Below the pieces are notes generated by a model. The model ran no database searches and was not told the origin of the DNA. It saw nothing but the letters and a program-made list of their open reading frames with translations. From the NCBI GenBank assembly GCA_029258725.1, contig JAPDKE010000006.1, positions 1-64,000 of the forward strand: a DNA stretch of 64,000 nucleotides, written 5' to 3'. The position numbers and the translations under genes were made by a program. The DNA is from a bacterium. GTDB taxonomy: Bacteria > Hydrothermota > UBA3072 > JAPDKE01. Of this stretch, positions 10,461 to 64,000 are shown one piece after another. How positions within the stretch are numbered: the first letter of the stretch is position 1; each line of letters opens with the position of its first letter.

Positions 10461-10637
10461 GATTCGGGTGTATAACAAAATATCTTGTAAATATCCAGGG
10501 TTATCCAGGGATATTGAGAACTCATAGCCCTTGCAGGGGTGCTTGATGCAGGAATGAGGATAGAGAAAGACACCCTTAAAGAAATCCCGGAAGACCCCTT
10601 CACCGATAGTGACGTCCAAAGATATGGGCTTCTCCCC
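10461..10637 (+). other. Intergenic stretch with a possible coding remnant
   Basis: Between the divergent leader cassette and the rsmD promoter, the plus frame reads ALAGVLDAGMRIEKDTLKEI then PEDPFTDSDVQRYGLLP, which looks like real protein but lacks a start, signal and stop in keeping with a gene. The 'PEDPFT' ending recalls C-termini of exported pilin-like or secreted proteins. It is probably a decayed fragment. Confidence 0.3.
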
Positions 10638-10665
10638 TTGACACCTCTCCCCTCTTCCCTATACT
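10638..10665 (+). promoter_or_regulatory. Sigma-70-type promoter of the rsmD operon (leaderless)
   Basis: TTGACA (10638-10643), 16-nt spacer, TATACT (10660-10665). The expected transcription start (about 10672) lies within 2 nt of the ATG at 10674, so there is no room for a Shine-Dalgarno site. Confidence 0.75.
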
Positions 10666-10673
10666 TTCAACCG

Positions 10674-11183
10674 ATGACAAGAATTTGCGGAGGGAAATGG
10701 AAGGGGAGGAAACTTTCTTCCCCTTCTGGAATAAGACTCACATCGGGAAGGGTGAAGGAGGCCCTCTTTTCAATGGTGGATGTGGAGGGGAAGGATTTTC
10801 TGGACCTCTTTGCAGGAAGCGGAGCCGTTGGAATAGAGGCACTTTCAAGAGGGGCAAAAAATGCAGTCTTTGTTGAAAAAAGAAGAGAGATTGTGAAAAT
10901 AATAAAAAAGAACCTTGAAAACCTCGGAGGAGTGGGTAAGGTTATAAGAGGAGACGCCGAACGTGTTGTGAGGAAAATGGAAGAAAAATTTGATGTAATC
11001 TTCATGGACCCTCCATACGAGAGGGGATATGTTGAGAGAGTACTTCCCCTCCTTCCTTCTCTTTTAAGGGAAGAAGGGATTATAGTTGTGGAGCACTCAA
11101 AAAGAGAGCCCGCGGAACTTCCTGGGTTTGAAAAGAAGGAAAAAATCTATAACGATACCGTTCTCACCCTTTTCTGGAGGTAA
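10674..11183 (+). CDS. rsmD: 16S rRNA (guanine966-N2)-methyltransferase RsmD
   Basis: S-adenosylmethionine-dependent methyltransferase modifying guanine 966 of 16S rRNA during 30S assembly. The 169-residue form from 10674 starts TRICGGKWKGRKL and carries the family motifs: TSGRVKEALFSMV, SAM-binding FLDLFAGSGAVGIEALSRGA (about 41-60) and the catalytic DPPY (FMDPPYERG, about 112). The frame is open further upstream to 10539, but that extension has no homologous look and the promoter sits just before 10674. First gene of a nine-gene overlapping operon; coaD follows after 2 nt. Confidence 0.92.
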   Translation: MTRICGGKWKGRKLSSPSGIRLTSGRVKEALFSMVDVEGKDFLDLFAGSGAVGIEALSRGAKNAVFVEKRREIVKIIKKNLENLGGVGKVIRGDAERVVRKMEEKFDVIFMDPPYERGYVERVLPLLPSLLREEGIIVVEHSKREPAELPGFEKKEKIYNDTVLTLFWR

Positions 11184-20269: not shown

Positions 20270-21556
20270 TTACAGATACTTTTCAAGATACCTGTAGTCG
20301 GGTGTGAGTTCCCCTTTATAGACAATCACCGCCCTCTTTAGAACAGGAGGGAGGGTGCAGTTTTCAAACCCAGGGGGATAGGATGCATTCACTATATCAG
20401 GGACAAATCCCTTGAGAATATGACTGAAGTAAATAGAGGCATCCCTTGGAACCTCACTGGGAAGTATATCCACTGCAAGAACAACCACACCATCTCCTTT
20501 GTATCCCATGGTTATCTCTTCCTTCTGTGGATTGTAAACATAAACCGGTTCGTCAGGTTCTGTTGCCCTGAGAGTGCACTCAACCCCTCCCTCAATGTCG
20601 CAACTTATATCCCCTATAACCTTTAATTTACTCTTTCCTGGCTCGTAGTTCTCTTTGAGATACTTCTTTGTAACAAGCCTTGGATACCTTTCATCCCAGT
20701 ATATTGCATTGACAAGGACTGTAAGATAGGGAAGGTATTTCTCAAAAACCCCTTTATACTTTTCAGGATGGTGATAATATTCCTGAAGTTCAAAAGGCCC
20801 ACCATCCTTTCTTTCAACCATGTGCTCTTCCTTGAAAACAACCTTGTAGATCGTATATCTATCGTCCTTCAATGTAAAGAGTTCCTCAGGGGTTATTTCC
20901 TTTACCGGCAGAAGGTCAAGAACCTCCTGAGCCCCTGTTGAGACATTTCCATATCCTGCAAATCCAACAACAAACGGAGTTATCTCAGGGGGAAGCCCCT
21001 CTTCCTTTATCTCCCTCCCTATCTTTTCACTCTCTTCCTCAAGTTCCTTAACCGAATGATACTCATACGCCCTCTTTATGTGAAGGAATGGGGTCTTCAA
21101 TCCCTCCCACTCAAGCCTCTTCCCGAGGGCCCACAGTGTATCAATCATTCCTGCAATTCCTGCAAACTTTCCAAAGGCAATCAGCCTTCTTCCGTTGTCA
21201 TCCACTATGCGCTCGTAGTCTATAAGGGTTGTTTTGAGTTCGAGCATCCTTTTGAGCATTGGCATGTTGTAGGGCTGTCCCTTTATTGTGTGGGAGAAGA
21301 ATATATAGGTCTTCCCCTCCTCAAAAACATGCACCGGAATTTCCTTTATTCCGAAAACAAAGGGGGCATCGGGTTTATCGCTTATTATCGCCCCTGCCTC
21401 CCTATACTCCTCATCCTTAAACACCCTTATGGGGGAACTCTGAACAACGGTTTCTATACCATGCTTTTCTTTAAGTTCCCTCACATCCTCGGGAACAAGG
21501 GGTGCCCTTCTTTCCCACCTGCTTTTGTCTTCCTTTCTTATCGCTATTCTCTTCAT
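20270..21556 (-). CDS. Lysine-ketoglutarate reductase (saccharopine dehydrogenase, lysine-forming type)
   Basis: A 428-residue protein of the alanine dehydrogenase/PNT-related LKR family, which condenses lysine and 2-oxoglutarate to saccharopine. Motifs: IAIRKEDKSRWERRAPLVPED at the N-terminus, PYNMPMLKRM (about 98), TLIDYERIVDDNGRRLIAFG (about 110), FVVGFAGYGNVSTGAQEVL (about 197), YWDERYPRL and GDISCDIEGGVECT (about 315). No saccharopine dehydrogenase partner is nearby, so the physiological direction or pathway is uncertain. The gene lacks a ribosome site; its promoter places the RNA 5' end at the ATG. Confidence 0.88.
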   Translation of the reverse strand: MKRIAIRKEDKSRWERRAPLVPEDVRELKEKHGIETVVQSSPIRVFKDEEYREAGAIISDKPDAPFVFGIKEIPVHVFEEGKTYIFFSHTIKGQPYNMPMLKRMLELKTTLIDYERIVDDNGRRLIAFGKFAGIAGMIDTLWALGKRLEWEGLKTPFLHIKRAYEYHSVKELEEESEKIGREIKEEGLPPEITPFVVGFAGYGNVSTGAQEVLDLLPVKEITPEELFTLKDDRYTIYKVVFKEEHMVERKDGGPFELQEYYHHPEKYKGVFEKYLPYLTVLVNAIYWDERYPRLVTKKYLKENYEPGKSKLKVIGDISCDIEGGVECTLRATEPDEPVYVYNPQKEEITMGYKGDGVVVLAVDILPSEVPRDASIYFSHILKGFVPDIVNASYPPGFENCTLPPVLKRAVIVYKGELTPDYRYLEKYL

Positions 21557-57999: not shown

Positions 58000-59289
58000 A
58001 TGCTCCTTGAAAACTATCGTGTAGCAAAAACTTTCTGGAAAATAGCGAAGGGTATAAGAGAAAAAGACATAAGAAAATCTATCCTCTTCTTCCAGGCCGG
58101 AAAGAGAATCATTACATGCCCTCGCCCATTTCAGGAAGAGGATAAATCCCTTTTAAGGCTGGAAAATGGGATTCTTAACCGGGCATATCAGTTCCTTAAC
58201 GGAACAATCCCGGAAAAATACAGGAAGTACATAGTAGATAAGAATGGATATCCTATGTGGTGTGATAATGACAAAATTTCTCCACTTCTTCAACAGGCAA
58301 TAGAAGAGGGTGTGCCTGAGTTGACTGGGCTTGTCTATCCTTTTGCTTCAAGAATCAAAGAAGAACTGCTTCATGCTGAGGAGATTGAAAGGGTAAAAAT
58401 CAATGGCATTAACAAGGAAATTACTGGAAAAATCGTGTTTTTATGTCAGGTAAAGAGAAGGCCATGTATCCAAGAAATCAAGGGAATGGTAGTTGAGAAA
58501 AAATGCAACACACGGTGGATAGGAAGAATCCGGGGAATAGAAATCCCCTGTGAGATTGTATTTCTCTCCCCAGAGGAATGGGGGGAGACCGAAGATAGTT
58601 TTTCTCTCCAAGGAGACTTGCATGTTCATTCTACCTGGTCTGATGGGTTTAATTCTCTGGAGGAAATAAAATTACATGCCAGGAAGCTCGGGCTGAAATA
58701 CGTTGCAATTACTGACCATTTGGGAAGAAAAAAGGATGAAGATGATACAGCTTTGGAGGAAAAAAAGAAACGTCTTCTGGAACGTAATCGTGTTATTGAG
58801 AAACTTAATAAAGAGGGAGAAGTAAAACTTTTAAAAGGTGTGGAAGTGGATATCGACCTTGATGGGCATCTTGTTTGTGAAGATGAGGCGTTTTTCAAAG
58901 AATTTGATATCATAGTTGCGGGGATTCATTTTAAGGTATCAGAGAACAGGATTGGACGGATAGTGAAAGCAATGGAATATCCATTTGTGCATGGAATTGC
59001 ACACCCTGTAAATCGAGACCTCTTCTTCAATCATGTGGGAATCACATTTAATGAGGTTGAGAAAATCTTTAAGGCGGCTGTTCAGCGCAACAAATGGGTT
59101 GAGATTAATTGTGATTTTAACCGGTTTGAACCCCCGCTGGAATATATCCGGATGGGAAAAAGAATGGGAGTAAAATTTTATCTTGGAACAGATTCCCATA
59201 GTTTATGGATGATGGGTTTGGTATTCCCGGCACTGGCATGGCTTCGCAGTGTCCTTTCCCCTACCGATTTGGTGAATAACTCCATATAA
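58000..59289 (+). CDS. PHP-domain hydrolase, PolX-related
   Basis: 429 residues. Residues about 204-429 are a complete PHP phosphoesterase: GDLHVHSTWSDG (H208, H210, D215), VAITDH (D239, H240), KGVEVDI (E282), AGIH (H310), HPVNRD (H335) and GTDSHS (D398, H400), a full metal set. The best resemblance is the C-terminal PHP of bacterial/archaeal PolX polymerases, but the N-terminal 200 residues lack the nucleotidyltransferase motifs; they start with helices (YRVAKTFWKIAKGIREKDIR) recalling the PolX HhH region. Predicted nuclease or phosphatase. First gene of the cluster leading to the HD and CHAT-NACHT genes. Confidence 0.85.
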   Translation: MLLENYRVAKTFWKIAKGIREKDIRKSILFFQAGKRIITCPRPFQEEDKSLLRLENGILNRAYQFLNGTIPEKYRKYIVDKNGYPMWCDNDKISPLLQQAIEEGVPELTGLVYPFASRIKEELLHAEEIERVKINGINKEITGKIVFLCQVKRRPCIQEIKGMVVEKKCNTRWIGRIRGIEIPCEIVFLSPEEWGETEDSFSLQGDLHVHSTWSDGFNSLEEIKLHARKLGLKYVAITDHLGRKKDEDDTALEEKKKRLLERNRVIEKLNKEGEVKLLKGVEVDIDLDGHLVCEDEAFFKEFDIIVAGIHFKVSENRIGRIVKAMEYPFVHGIAHPVNRDLFFNHVGITFNEVEKIFKAAVQRNKWVEINCDFNRFEPPLEYIRMGKRMGVKFYLGTDSHSLWMMGLVFPALAWLRSVLSPTDLVNNSI

Positions 59290-59498
59290 AGATTGTTATG
59301 ATATTTTGCTCCTTATCAAAAGGCCTGATTATTTTACATTCAGTGTTCTGGGAGATAAAAGTCCTGGAGAGATCATCCAGTAGCTACCTATCTCCTTGAA
59401 ATCCCTTTCTCTCCACCTATAATCCTGGACGATGTCATTGAAGAAATGAGAAAAACTGGAATGTGAGGAAATCGGTCAACCTCCTGTTGAGTAGATGC
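59290..59498 (+). pseudogene. Small coding remnant
   Basis: Plus-frame text HPVATYLLEIPFSPPIILDD, VIEEMRKTGM-stop ends at about 59463 and reads like the C-terminus of a real protein. No start codon or upstream frame remains, so it is taken as a fossil. Confidence 0.3.
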
Positions 59499-59526
59499 TT
59501 GACATCTTGTTCTCGTTCTGTAAGAA
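59499..59526 (+). promoter_or_regulatory. Promoter of the Panacea-like/HD pair
   Basis: TTGACA (59499-59504), 16-nt spacer, TAAGAA (59521-59526); AAAGGAGGAAAGG precedes the ATG at 59553. Confidence 0.6.
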
Positions 59527-59552
59527 TAAATAGGGAAAAAAAGGAGGAAAGG

Positions 59553-60104
59553 ATGAAAAAGAGATTGTCTCTTACCGTGAAGAAAGTTTTAAATACGGTT
59601 TCTCTTCTTACTCAGGAAAACATAAAAGCAAATCGGGAGATTATCCATGAAATTGTGTATCTTTCCCTTCCTTCCCATGCGCGAAAAAAATATTACACAG
59701 CAGGCCTGGAAGGTCCTTACAGTGAAGATGTTGACCTTCTAATCCAGGGTCTTCTTTATAAAAAATCGCTCCGATATGAGAATGGATTTAAGGCCGAGAC
59801 AAATGGTACTCCTGATAGAAGAGAGAAAGTAACCGTTGAGTTTTTGAAAAAGCATCATCTCCTTCAGCATGACAAACTCGCAGAATTCTCCCGGGTTTTC
59901 ATGTTTTTTGATGAACTAAAAGACAAAAAAGAGGAGGAACTGGTAAACTATATTAAAAAAAGAAGCAAATTTCTTGGATGGACAGACCTTTCCAGGAAGA
60001 CCAAAAATGTGATTTTGAGATATCTCAAATACGCTCGCGAACTGGAGAAGGAGTTAAAGGGTGCATCTTCTGGAAGGATGGGAAATAGAGACTCTTCCAG
60101 TTAG
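59553..60104 (+). CDS. Unrecognised 183-aa protein, possibly Panacea/SocA-like
   Basis: Start placed at ATG 59553 because of the AAAGGAGG upstream; the frame is open to 59463. The central YTAGLEGPYSEDVDLLIQGL with LYKKSLRYENG recalls the 'YGPYSexL...L...GLI' core of the Panacea/DUF4065 (SocA-type antitoxin and phage-associated) domain; this is a weak, motif-level match. The flanks are helical (LTVKKVLNTVSLLTQENIKA, DKKEEELVNYIKKRSKFLGW). No signal. It overlaps the HD gene by 44 bp, so the two are probably made together. A regulator or antitoxin role is inference. Confidence 0.55.
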   Translation: MKKRLSLTVKKVLNTVSLLTQENIKANREIIHEIVYLSLPSHARKKYYTAGLEGPYSEDVDLLIQGLLYKKSLRYENGFKAETNGTPDRREKVTVEFLKKHHLLQHDKLAEFSRVFMFFDELKDKKEEELVNYIKKRSKFLGWTDLSRKTKNVILRYLKYARELEKELKGASSGRMGNRDSSS

Positions 60105-61458
60105 AGACCCTATTTACAATTTCATTGAAATACCGCGGGAATTTATCTCTCTTATTGACTCTGAAATATTTCAGAGGTTAAGATGGATTTCTCAAACTCC
60201 ACTGGAACAACTTGTGTATCCGTCGGTGGCTCATTCCAGGTTTGAACATAGTCTGGGAACCATGTATCTTGCGATGACTGCCGCCGTAAGCCTTATCAGA
60301 AACTCCCCAGCAAGGCTGGAGGCAATACTCAAGGAAGATGATGCATTTAGAAGTTTATCTCCAAAGGAAAGAGAACGGCAATTTATTCTCTCAGCCGGGG
60401 CTATTGGGTTACTTCACGACCTTGGGCATCCTCCATTCAGTCATGCTCTGGAAGAAGCATGTGAGTACATATTTGAGGATGAGAAGCATTTTTATAACCA
60501 TGAGATAGTTTCGTATTATTATGCACGGATATTATTGAGACAGAAGAAAGTGAAGACCACACCATGGGGAGAAAAGGCATTGAGTGTTTTAAAGAATAAA
60601 AAGTCAAAGGAGAAGATTAAGCTCTCTCCCGTTGAAAATCTCCTGCTTACCCTTATAGACGGGCCTATTGATGTTGACAAAGGGGATTATCTTTTAAGGG
60701 ATAGTTATCATTGTGGAACCACCTATGGCCTTTATGACAGAGATAGATTGTGGAGAAATATTATAATTACCAAAGACAACCAGCTTGGAGTGCATCCAAA
60801 AGGAGCGGTAGAGGCATGGGCATTGAGAATAGCACGGTATAGACTGGGAACGGGTGTTTATCAGCATCATACACGAAATATAATAGATGCCATGCTTATT
60901 GATATACTCTGTGGAATAAAGGAAGAATGTCTTCCATTAATAATTCCTGATTACAGAAAAAAGGAGAAATTTCTTGGCTGGACCGAACATACATTTCTGA
61001 ATGCACTCATGGAGGCTGGAGACCGTAGAACCAGAAGAAAGGTTGAACGATTGAGAAAAAGGGAACTTTATAAAAGAGGTTTTGAGATTAATTTGATTGA
61101 ATTTCCTGAACTGCTCATAAAAGAGACGGTAACACAGGTAAAAAGAGACCTTCTCTTCTGGAAAGACTCCCTTTCTTCCAGGGTGAAGGATAAGATTATT
61201 TTCCTTGTAGATAGAATCCCTATACCTCCTGTATTTGAAAAGGAGGTCCAGAAGGAAATAATAGTTGAAGAAAATGGTAATGAAAAACCGCTTGCAGAGT
61301 ATCTTGGATTTAAGTTAGAGGAGACACAAATTGTTTCGTGCCCCTGGAGAATTTTTATATTTGTTGACAAAGATTTGAAGGATAACAAAGAAATCCTGGA
61401 AGGGATAGAAAAAGACCTGAGAGAATACCTCGAAAAAATCTCCAAGCCTCTCTCTTGA
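60061..61458 (+). CDS. HD-domain phosphohydrolase (dGTPase/SAMHD1-related)
   Basis: 465 residues from the GTG at 60061 (AAGGAG upstream). An HD-superfamily metal site of the COG1078 type is present: IPREFISLIDSEIFQRLRWI, SVAHSRFEHSLGTMYLA (H63), IGLLHDLGHPPFSHALEE (H119, D120) and DVDKGDYLLRDSYHCGTTYG (D206 or D209). Family members hydrolyse nucleoside triphosphates or related phosphoesters. The C-terminal 200 residues are extra and helical/beta mixed. Such dGTPases can deplete nucleotides against phage; here the role is inferred from the neighbours. It ends just before the CHAT-NACHT promoter. Confidence 0.85.
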   Translation: MHLLEGWEIETLPVRDPIYNFIEIPREFISLIDSEIFQRLRWISQTPLEQLVYPSVAHSRFEHSLGTMYLAMTAAVSLIRNSPARLEAILKEDDAFRSLSPKERERQFILSAGAIGLLHDLGHPPFSHALEEACEYIFEDEKHFYNHEIVSYYYARILLRQKKVKTTPWGEKALSVLKNKKSKEKIKLSPVENLLLTLIDGPIDVDKGDYLLRDSYHCGTTYGLYDRDRLWRNIIITKDNQLGVHPKGAVEAWALRIARYRLGTGVYQHHTRNIIDAMLIDILCGIKEECLPLIIPDYRKKEKFLGWTEHTFLNALMEAGDRRTRRKVERLRKRELYKRGFEINLIEFPELLIKETVTQVKRDLLFWKDSLSSRVKDKIIFLVDRIPIPPVFEKEVQKEIIVEENGNEKPLAEYLGFKLEETQIVSCPWRIFIFVDKDLKDNKEILEGIEKDLREYLEKISKPLS

Positions 61459-61483
61459 CAGAAATTTCTTAATTTTTTATTAT
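61455..61483 (+). promoter_or_regulatory. Promoter of the CHAT-NACHT gene (leaderless)
   Basis: TTGACA (61455-61460, overlapping the HD stop), 17-nt spacer, TATTAT (61478-61483), then TTTACC and the ATG at 61490. The predicted RNA starts at the ATG. Confidence 0.78.
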
Positions 61484-61489
61484 TTTACC

Positions 61490-64000
61490 ATGTGGGTATT
61501 TGAGGTGAAGTTAAGGATTGAAAAAGATGGGAAGTTAACGAGAAGGTATTTTCTGGGGGAGGAGGAGAAGTTTGTTTTCAGTGATAGTTTATGGGAAAAA
61601 GAAGAGATAGAAAAAGATATTGACGATTATTACGAGGCTCTCAAAAAGGGAAATACACCTGCGACGGATAAACTCGGTGTTCTCATTTATAAACTTTTAT
61701 TCCCTCTCCCTGCGCTTCACAGGTTATTTATGGATTATTTCAATGACTGTGGTTCTGGTAATTTTCTTTTCCTGGTGGATATTGAGGAAGAAAATGAACT
61801 TTTGATAAAAATTCCCTATGAACTTGCAGGATGGGGCTCTCTCAATATTGATAATCTGGAGGAGGAGTTATACCCTAACGCCTTTTATGGAGTTTATCCC
61901 GGGATACCCATTGAGAAGAAAAGATACAGATCCTTTCCAGACCGGTCTCTTTCGTGTGATACCTCCATGGTATTTGCCCGCAGGAGTCATAATCGGGATG
62001 TAAACCTGGTGGAAGTTGAAAAGTTGCGGATTCTTATTCTTCGGTCCTCGGAAGGAGTTCCTTATGATGCAAGGGAAATAGGGATTTTCAAGAACATTGA
62101 GCAGGCGGTGGAGGAGAGGATTGAGAAGATTGAAGAAAAGGAAATCTTGTTTTCCACATCTGAGGCTGTAAGACAGGTCATTGAGGATAGCAAACCCCAT
62201 GTGCTTCATGTGATTTCTCATGGTGAAGGAAACGGAAGGATAGGAAATATGGCTCCCAAGGAGTGGGCCGAGATTTGTGAGGGTATTTCAATAGTTTTCT
62301 TTTCCTGCTGTCATGGGCACATACCTGCCTTTTATGCCTCCAGGTTCTGTGGTTGTGCCATAGGGGTTAAGGGAATTGTGGATGGGCGTATGATTGCGAA
62401 AGATGCTGGAGTCTTTTATAGTAACTTGCTTACTTCTTCACATCCTCAAGCACTTTATGATGCATTGAGAAAAACTTTAAAAGGAGATATTTATACCGTT
62501 TATCTCTCCCCCCGTGCCCTCAAACTCTTCCTCTGGCCCGAGGAGAGGGTGGAGAAGAAATTCAGGGAAATGATGAGAGATTATGTATCTCCATTGAAAA
62601 TGGAGACTAAGTTGTATTCAGGGAGGCTGGAGGATGTGTACATTAAAAGAGAACTGGAGGAAAAAAGAGAAGGGAAAGGAAGGCTTGAGGTTAGAGAAAG
62701 AGATAAAGCATTTCCAGGGAAAATACCCGAAGCCCCTTCTGAGGTAATCGCAGATGAAAAATTGATAGGGGAATTGAAAAAGAGCAGGGGTAGGTTTGTG
62801 ATTTCTGGTGCAATGGGCTCCGGAAAGACGATGCTTTTAAAATATCTGGCTTTAAGGCTGTCCTCAGATTCTGAAGCGGTTCCCATTTATATTTCCCTTC
62901 CATCTCTTGACTTAAAATCTTCAGACTTTATGAATGCTGTTGAGATATATGTGAAGGAGCATCTTTCTAAGAAAAAGGAAAAGGAGATTTTATGGGAAGA
63001 AGTGATACTGAAAAAGGGGATATTTCTTCTTGATGGTTATGATGAACTTGGAAAAGAGGAAAGACGAAAACTCAATGAGATGCTGGTAAGAAATGAGGCA
63101 TTAAAAATTCGCCCTCTCGTGATTGCTACAAGACCCGAGTATGAAGGAGAGTTAAAGAAAGACTTCAGGATTTTGAAAATGCGTCCTCTCAAAAACTGGA
63201 AAGAGGGAGTGGAGAAGTATATAAAGGATGAAGAAAAAAGAAAGAATTTTATTGAAGAGATTGAAAAACGAAAAAAGCATTATGTTTCTTTGTTTGAAAC
63301 CCCTCTTTTTCTTGCTATTTTGTGCATAGTTTATGAAAAAAATGGGTGGTTACCTTCCACATGGACAGAGTTGATAAGGGTATATGTTGAATCATCTATC
63401 AGGGATTGGCCTGAGGAGAAAGGGAGAGATAAAATTGATGATATCGGATATAAAAAACTCATTAAAGTGCTTTCCGAGGTTTCTTTTGAGTATTTTAATG
63501 AAAAAATATTGCCTGAAGAGGATTTAATGCAAAGGATGGAAGAAAAGGGCGTTAAAGAGTTTAAGGATTATATAAGGGGGATACTTGTTCCTTTGCGGAA
63601 AATGGAAGAGTACAGGGTAAGGGTTTATTACTCTTTCATTCACGATGCCTTTCTTGAATGGTTTTGTGCCCTATATTTAAAGGAAAATGGATATTTGGAG
63701 TTTCTTAAGGAAAATTATTATCGTCCCGAATACCGAAATGTGTTTATTTTTCTTTCTGGTTTGCTTGAGGATGCGACAGAGATGGTGGAGTTCCTTGAAG
63801 AGAATGGAGCGGTTGAACTTGCGGCATATTGTGTAAGGGAGGGAAAGGTTAAAAAAGAGGTTATTGATAAAGTTGTTAATGACCTTATGGAACTTGTGAG
63901 GATGGAGATAAAATGCGAGGATAATCTTCCCTGGCTTCGTGATGCAGTGTTTGCGGTGAGGGAGCATGTTAAGGTAAAAGATGACTGGGATTTAGGCCTA
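61490..64000 (+). CDS. CHAT protease-NACHT ATPase fusion (3' end outside window)
   Basis: 837 codons are visible, no stop. Residues about 180-335 are a CHAT caspase-like domain: RILILRSSEGVPYDAREIG start, catalytic His244 in VLHVISHGEGNGRIGN and Cys273/274 in IVFFSCCHGHIPAF. A linker with YVSPLKMETKLYSGRLEDVY follows, then a NACHT-type STAND ATPase: Walker A GAMGSGKT (440-447), Walker B with LLDGYDEL (513-520), a VIATRPEYEGE sensor region (about 545) and the helical continuation (YSFIHDAFLEWFCALYLKEN). This is a ligand-gated protease design used in bacterial immunity. The N-terminal 150 residues and the missing C-terminus probably hold sensing parts. Confidence 0.88.
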   Translation, partial: MWVFEVKLRIEKDGKLTRRYFLGEEEKFVFSDSLWEKEEIEKDIDDYYEALKKGNTPATDKLGVLIYKLLFPLPALHRLFMDYFNDCGSGNFLFLVDIEEENELLIKIPYELAGWGSLNIDNLEEELYPNAFYGVYPGIPIEKKRYRSFPDRSLSCDTSMVFARRSHNRDVNLVEVEKLRILILRSSEGVPYDAREIGIFKNIEQAVEERIEKIEEKEILFSTSEAVRQVIEDSKPHVLHVISHGEGNGRIGNMAPKEWAEICEGISIVFFSCCHGHIPAFYASRFCGCAIGVKGIVDGRMIAKDAGVFYSNLLTSSHPQALYDALRKTLKGDIYTVYLSPRALKLFLWPEERVEKKFREMMRDYVSPLKMETKLYSGRLEDVYIKRELEEKREGKGRLEVRERDKAFPGKIPEAPSEVIADEKLIGELKKSRGRFVISGAMGSGKTMLLKYLALRLSSDSEAVPIYISLPSLDLKSSDFMNAVEIYVKEHLSKKKEKEILWEEVILKKGIFLLDGYDELGKEERRKLNEMLVRNEALKIRPLVIATRPEYEGELKKDFRILKMRPLKNWKEGVEKYIKDEEKRKNFIEEIEKRKKHYVSLFETPLFLAILCIVYEKNGWLPSTWTELIRVYVESSIRDWPEEKGRDKIDDIGYKKLIKVLSEVSFEYFNEKILPEEDLMQRMEEKGVKEFKDYIRGILVPLRKMEEYRVRVYYSFIHDAFLEWFCALYLKENGYLEFLKENYYRPEYRNVFIFLSGLLEDATEMVEFLEENGAVELAAYCVREGKVKKEVIDKVVNDLMELVRMEIKCEDNLPWLRDAVFAVREHVKVKDDWDLGL

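Follow-up and report, generated by a model that had tools for sequence, protein, structure and literature searches.

A candidate family of NLR-like CHAT-NACHT-HEAT proteins with apparently exchanged repeat units in a Hydrothermota genome

We analyzed a stretch of 64,000 nucleotides (nt) from a bacterium of the phylum Hydrothermota (the window; GenBank JAPDKE010000006.1, positions 1-64000 of contig C13 in a 2.1 Mb draft genome of 53 contigs), with a focus on the gene at its right end, which encodes a CHAT domain fused to a NACHT ATPase. This gene, copy A, is one of three related genes (A, B and C) that share a CHAT-NACHT-HEAT architecture. The family is mosaic, the catalytic His has been lost in B and C, A and B share repeat units, and replacement changes are in excess in their repeats. 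Our favored explanation, to which we assign a probability of roughly 60%, is that A, B and C constitute a small NLR-like (STAND) receptor family in which the sensors diversify and one member is active as a protease.

CHAT, NACHT and HEAT regions of copy A

As a first-pass annotation of the window had proposed, we followed the contig past 64 kb. It extends for another 1237 bases, to position 65237, and the CHAT-NACHT frame is open throughout. The NACHT assignment made in that annotation was borne out by Pfam (4.2e-9, 36.9 bits versus a cut-off of 26.7) and by the Walker A (GAMGSGKT, 62807-62830) and Walker B (LLDGYDEL, 63026-63049) motifs. Both motifs are present in all three copies, as expected of NACHT/STAND NTPases. 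As to the companion claim of a His/Cys CHAT protease, the Pfam score of the N-terminal half for CHAT (12.4 bits) was below the cut-off of 24, but the predicted fold and the placement of the catalytic residues agree with the claim. When residues 1-430 were modeled (AlphaFold) and compared with known structures (Foldseek), the top PDB match was SAVED-CHAT 8tl0 (E 8e-7), followed by caspases; the overall confidence of this model was low and was best in the core. In the model, His244 (62219-62221) and Cys274 follow consecutive core strands, and Cys274, one of two adjacent cysteines (Cys273/Cys274, 62306-62311), is the Cys kept in B and C. With a catalytic His and Cys both present, the CHAT domain of copy A is predicted to be an active protease, and its fold supplies the N-terminal effector domain of the protein.

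Past the window, copy A continues into a HEAT array of 12 units of ~99 nt (TRF 99 nt x 11.8), in which the HEAT profile PF13646 scored above cut-off; thus, the C-terminus consists of superstructure-forming repeats. The corresponding array of copy B was modeled as a confident helical array (pLDDT mostly 70-89), this 1166-residue model being informative for the HEAT array only. On the basis of architecture, it is well supported that CHAT-NACHT is a conflict or defense protein.

Three paralogues in one assembly

Copy C is located on contig C17 (L020) of the same genome. Copy B, detected by scanning genome contigs, fills the 3.5-kb contig L058 (JAPDKB010000014.1), which is binned with an archaeal metagenome-assembled genome. 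However, the last 127 bases of L058 are exactly the first 127 bases of C17, and the C-terminal end of the copy B array lies at C17:1-385. Judging from this overlap, L058 and C17 are likely neighboring contigs of one assembly graph, and L058 is likely mis-binned in the public record, which is simpler than assuming that an archaeon acquired the gene horizontally. A direct join of C13 and C17, first inferred from their similar HEAT ends, was rejected because the first 127 bases of C17 are matched exactly by L058 and not by C13. The assembly breaks at the end of C13 because an exact 126-nt internal repeat of copy A ends precisely there.

Copy B is open over ~1250 codons. Copy C is split into a CHAT-NACHT frame and a HEAT frame, with AGGAGG-like sequences preceding the restarts. 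The insert between these parts (L020 5560-5760) carries a stop, a restart and a frame of 32 codons that has an AGGAGG to itself, and it appears to reflect a split of the gene, not a simple nonsense mutation. Among 147 genomes of the phylum, CHAT-NACHT was confined to this one, and beyond NACHT-level matches and L058 no further relatives were detected in the phylum, viral contigs, plasmids or 85k genomes, although the genome and viral scans used exact short peptide patterns and could have missed distant relatives.

Probable exchange and diversification of HEAT units

The repeat analysis covered 10-11 full-length HEAT units per array, in three genes from one short-read metagenome assembly. DNA identity between units was 79% within A, 82% within B and 78% between A and B, and the units of A and B showed no correspondence by position. 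Exact matches spanned 126 nt (A-A), 100 nt (B-B) and 81 nt (A-B). The similarity of the A-B identity to that within each gene, together with the 81-nt exact stretch, points to exchange both within and between paralogues, as described for the fungal genes het-d and het-e. In addition, the longest exact internal repeats in A (L002 7427-7552 and 8111-8236) and in B have the same spacing of 684 nt, which corresponds to six 33-residue units plus one 30-residue unit and suggests that a higher-order block was duplicated in both arrays.

Pairwise ratios of nonsynonymous to synonymous differences (pN/pS) between units were 1.45 in A (bootstrap 1.22-1.82) and 1.16 in B (0.95-1.42), and they rose to 1.77 and 1.70, respectively, at unit positions 20-33. 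The ratio was 0.55 (0.46-0.68) in the array of copy C and 0.49 (0.39-0.60) in a control, another HEAT protein encoded in this genome. Picking positions by entropy and testing them in the array they came from would be circular; variable positions were therefore picked in A for testing in B, and vice versa. The variable positions (4, 12, 16, 22-24, 26, 29, 30 and 33) agreed between A and B (Spearman 0.74), whereas replacement changes in A and B were not enriched at positions defined in copy C. By counting methods in this one genome, diversifying positions are thus found within units, again as in het-d/het-e. Each unit in the copy B model has two helices, one made up of positions 25-33 and 1-5 and the other of positions 10-20. 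Variable positions 26, 29, 30, 33 and 4 share one face of the first helix, 12 and 16 share one face of the second, and 22-24 are in the loop. V27, V31, L2 and I5 look buried, and the variable positions would be exposed, as judged from their spacing rather than from computed accessibility.

One may argue that the proteins are NLR-like but that their arrays evolve neutrally, by slippage or gene conversion, with the pN/pS signal produced by few units, shared exchange events or assembly mixing. Tandem 99-nt units with long exact repeats are indeed prone to recombination and misassembly, the number of full-length units is small, and copy C carries no diversifying signal. However, a neutral simulation yielded a pN/pS of 0.83 (0.56-1.24), below the value for A, and the cross-tested variable positions reached 2.92 in A and 1.75 in B versus 0.8 for the remaining positions. 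Their concordance between the arrays and their location on one side of each helix also speak against the neutral reading, and we consider neutral evolution of the arrays unlikely.

Mosaic structure and a missing catalytic His in B and C

Sequence similarity among the three copies is highly uneven. In consecutive 60-column blocks of the CHAT region, B and C are 100, 63, 52, 65, 60 and 48% identical, and A is 19-49% identical to either. Every pair of copies is ~19-40% identical in NACHT, about 30% on the whole, and 80-85% identical in the connector that follows. Since a single tree cannot yield this pattern, either exchange or very uneven constraint must be involved.

In both B and C, the catalytic His is lost (SHG replaced by GEE, in IGEEEE) and the Cys is kept, so the His/Cys pair of a CHAT protease is incomplete. 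The CHAT region nevertheless shows purifying selection between B and C (dN/dS, the corresponding substitution ratio, 0.26), and the inactive domain therefore seems to be maintained. Inactive caspase-like domains are frequent in bacterial conflict systems (PMC7159879). B and C might instead be decaying pseudogenes of a formerly active family rather than working pseudoproteases, as the loss of His in both and the interruption of copy C between NACHT and HEAT would suggest. Such decay is difficult to reconcile with the low dN/dS and with the long open frame of copy B; moreover, the two frames of copy C each lie near an AGGAGG ribosome-binding-like sequence, and the promoter of this copy is near consensus. 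Pseudogene status is accordingly improbable in our assessment.

A possible mechanism of sensing and diversification

If A, B and C are an NLR-like receptor family, the HEAT array would bind an invader-derived or non-self ligand, and ligand binding would free the NACHT module for oligomerization with ATP. Clustered CHAT domains of copy A might then turn into active proteases by proximity, and their proteolysis would kill or arrest the infected cell. B and C could contribute to sensing, scaffolding or regulation, perhaps in joint assemblies with A. Sensor specificity would shift as 99-nt units recombine unequally and are exchanged, both inside a gene and from one gene to another, with positive selection acting in addition. 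A stronger version of this idea, which we find possible but doubtful, is that the family is a bacterial counterpart of het-d/het-e, i.e., a paralogous NLR network whose HEAT units are reshuffled and selected to be diverse, with A as the protease-active executor and B and C as conserved pseudoprotease receptors that act with it.

Several points weigh against the receptor-family explanation. Orthologues were not found outside this assembly, so selection is deduced from the repeat units of one metagenome, and since A and B exchange units, neither the arrays nor the unit pairs are fully independent. The arrays were assembled from short reads, and units could be misjoined or strain-mixed; the assembly also does not fix the 5' end of copy B or the order of A and B. 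Highly internally conserved repeats are by definition those whose units exceed 85% identity across 100 residues or more (PMC4986451), whereas mean unit identity here is 79-82% at the DNA level and 59-66% at the protein level, with the best pairs reaching 93-99% in DNA. Copy C, in two frames and with a non-diversifying array, could be decaying. The structural models have low confidence outside the CHAT core and the HEAT array, and an anti-phage role is suggested by architecture rather than by function.

Should the explanation prove true, it would describe a prokaryotic NLR sensor that is diversified by recombination and selection, with no diversity-generating retroelement involved. How bacterial STAND sensors come by new specificities, an open question, would then be testable within one gene family.

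Neighboring genes and their organization

The first-pass annotation had treated copy A as the last member of a candidate four-gene defense system, together with genes for a PHP hydrolase, a small protein and an HD phosphohydrolase. All four are genuine open frames on the plus strand (Table 1). Two starts were corrected: the small-protein gene begins at ATG 59553, with a good ribosome site, and the HD gene begins at GTG 60061, within the small-protein gene. No Rfam RNA was found in the window. Bases 1-150 of C13 match C16:51133-51282 on the minus strand (99%).

Table 1. Features at the right end of the window and the evidence for each
Feature	Position	Strand	Evidence
PHP hydrolase	58000-59289	+	Pfam PF02811 2.9e-10; NCBIfam PolX/PRK07945 PHP 4e-34
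Promoter-like TTGAAA-N16-TATAAT, 5' of small protein	59396-59423	+	Consensus match only
Small protein, 183 residues, LEGPYSED motif, HD partner	59553-60104	+	Open frame, position, motif
HD phosphohydrolase of the SAMHD1/EF1143/aq_1910 kind	60061-61458	+	Pfam HD and HD_assoc_2; PDB matches
Promoter-like TTGACA-N17-TATTAT, 5' of CHAT-NACHT	61455-61483	+	Consensus match; likewise at copy C
CHAT-NACHT-HEAT gene, copy A	61490-64000, on to contig end 65237	+	Open frame
CHAT protease core, ~residues 171-347	62000-62530	+	Predicted fold, alignment
NACHT NTPase module and helical part after it	62780-63690	+	Pfam, alignment
NACHT-HEAT connector	63692-64000	+	Alignment of copies A, B and C

The region's two strongest promoter-like sites lie ahead of the small-protein gene and of CHAT-NACHT, in agreement with the division into an HD/small-protein unit and a separate CHAT-NACHT unit that the annotation had read from promoter spacing. 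The -10 element of the CHAT-NACHT promoter ends 6 nt before ATG 61490, and the transcript is predicted to be leaderless. Copy C has the same arrangement (TTGACC-N17-TATAAT, 7 nt, then ATG). At two more genes of the window (10539-11183 and 20270-21556), promoters close to consensus have their -10 box 6-8 nt away from the ATG, and no ribosome-binding site lies near the first start codons; this genome seems to use leaderless starts.

The annotated PHP and HD domain assignments were confirmed. PF02811 and PolX-type PHP models match the first protein, with the PolX-type PHP domain at residues 203-406. The HD protein matches Pfam HD (5.4e-9) and HD_assoc_2 (2.2e-11), contains the stretches RFEHSLG, HDLGH and DYLLRDS with intact HD residues, and has PDB matches down to 3e-28 over the catalytic core, as expected of the SAMHD1/EF1143 type. 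Its solved relatives include 2hek, 9mr6, 2q14, 2o6i (EF1143) and SAMHD1 chains.

The HD and small-protein genes overlap by 44 nt, and since the HD start lies inside the small-protein gene, the two are likely translationally coupled. HD homologs occur in 25 of the 147 genomes. At seven loci including the window, a small protein of 160-195 residues with a GPYS/GPFS motif adjoins HD, either 5' or 3', usually overlapping or abutting it. Two of three such proteins tested beside other HD genes matched the C-terminal region of DarG well (PADLOC 2e-9 and 2e-10; NCBIfam 2e-7 and 8e-10), the third did so weakly, and one of the other small proteins weakly matched SocA_Panacea (E 0.058). The GPYS motif reported for the small protein of the window is present, as LEGPYSED, but the description of this protein as Panacea-like found no support in its sequence. 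No convincing match, including to SocA_Panacea/DUF4065, was obtained in Pfam, NCBIfam or PADLOC, and a Panacea/DarG-like assignment by sequence was not borne out, the hhalign probability against other GPYS proteins being 2%. Its place among the GPYS partners rests on position and motif.

HD and the GPYS protein form a separate two-gene module, probably composed of a dNTPase-type HD enzyme and a small partner. It is quite possible, although we would not favor it, that they form a toxin-antitoxin-like or anti-phage dNTPase module in which a Panacea/DarG-like partner restrains the enzyme. The recurrent pairing, the DarG and SocA_Panacea matches of other small proteins and the structurally known HD relatives, SAMHD1 and EF1143 among them, favor this idea; on the other hand, the HD family is common and often lacks the partner, including at plasmid loci, the small protein of the window is not measurably related to other GPYS proteins, and toxicity of the module is putative. 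This idea concerns the neighboring unit and is compatible with an NLR-like CHAT-NACHT.

PHP is a third unit, unrelated to either CHAT-NACHT or the HD pair. A single four-gene defense system is very improbable: the genes are consecutive on one strand, only 31 nt separate HD from CHAT-NACHT, and the enzyme classes are known from defense loci, but the set co-occurs in none of the other genomes among the 147, an outcome that the annotation itself had named as telling against its proposal, neither PHP nor CHAT-NACHT was found at five extended HD loci (four from other genomes plus a second locus of this genome, with only short CHAT-NACHT stretches of E above 0.2), the units have promoter-like sites of their own, and copies B and C have neighbors different from those of copy A. 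The annotation had not recognized the set as a named system; no PADLOC or NCBIfam defense model scored above cut-off, and only weak NTPase-level matches were seen. Although the four-gene proposal falls, a repeat-diversifying receptor family is unusual and testable.

Near the other copies, a Pup-ligase/Dop homolog (L020 1399-2616; PF03136 4e-55) lies between B and C, outside its usual actinobacterial setting; its Dop score (2.5e-43) is under the equivalog cut-off, and no adjacent Pup was recognized. Downstream of copy C are an S8 subtilase (L020 9364-10635; PADLOC subtilase 4e-37), a Fic-type protein (HPFYDGNGR motif) and a 572-residue HEAT-array protein (L087 152-919 and 995-2713, respectively), and this region looks like a conflict island.

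Comparison with known systems

The HD protein resembles the SAMHD1/EF1143/aq_1910 phosphohydrolases in its catalytic core, which matches 2hek, 2q14, 2o6i and SAMHD1, but differs in its coupled GPYS neighbor, and its dNTPase activity is a prediction. With Panacea (SocA/PanA) and the DarG C-terminal region, the resemblance concerns the GPYS/GPFS proteins beside other HD genes, which match DarG profiles, whereas the small protein of the window has the GPYS region alone in common with them.

SAVED-CHAT (8tl0) is the best fold match of the copy A effector and likewise has His and Cys after consecutive core strands. There, however, a SAVED cyclic-nucleotide sensor exerts control in place of NACHT-HEAT, and two of the three copies described here lack the His. 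Bacterial STAND proteins with a tripartite layout sense phage proteins and kill (PMC10907252, PMC12169576). The family shares with bNACHT and Avs proteins the N-terminal effector, central STAND/NACHT NTPase and C-terminal superstructure sensor (PMC12169576, PMC10907252); it differs in that no PADLOC or NCBIfam bNACHT/Avs model scored above cut-off, a CHAT effector is combined with a HEAT array, and phage sensing is putative. A caspase-like effector, NACHT and HEAT are thus joined in an arrangement outside the defense models searched here.

Bacterial WD40 proteins have earlier been reported to show high internal conservation (Hu 2017, cited in PMC12222747), and we found no report of it in the open-access literature for HEAT sensors of bacterial NACHT proteins. 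Members of the het-d/het-e family exchange repeats with each other as well as internally, and diversifying selection acts on four surface positions (PMC1805685); ANK repeats of fungal NLRs behave in a similar way, as do their TPR-type repeats, a class that includes HEAT (PMC4986451). By analogy, these fungal NACHT-WD NLRs (HNWD, Podospora) appear to be the closest evolutionary parallel to A, B and C, with the same effector-NACHT-repeat layout, near-identical units, exchange within and between paralogues and few diversifying surface positions per unit (PMC1805685, PMC12222747). The fungal proteins differ in their WD40 repeats and fungal effectors, where HEAT and CHAT are found here, and their units are 80-100% identical, whereas those of A and B, known from one assembly, average 79-82% in DNA.

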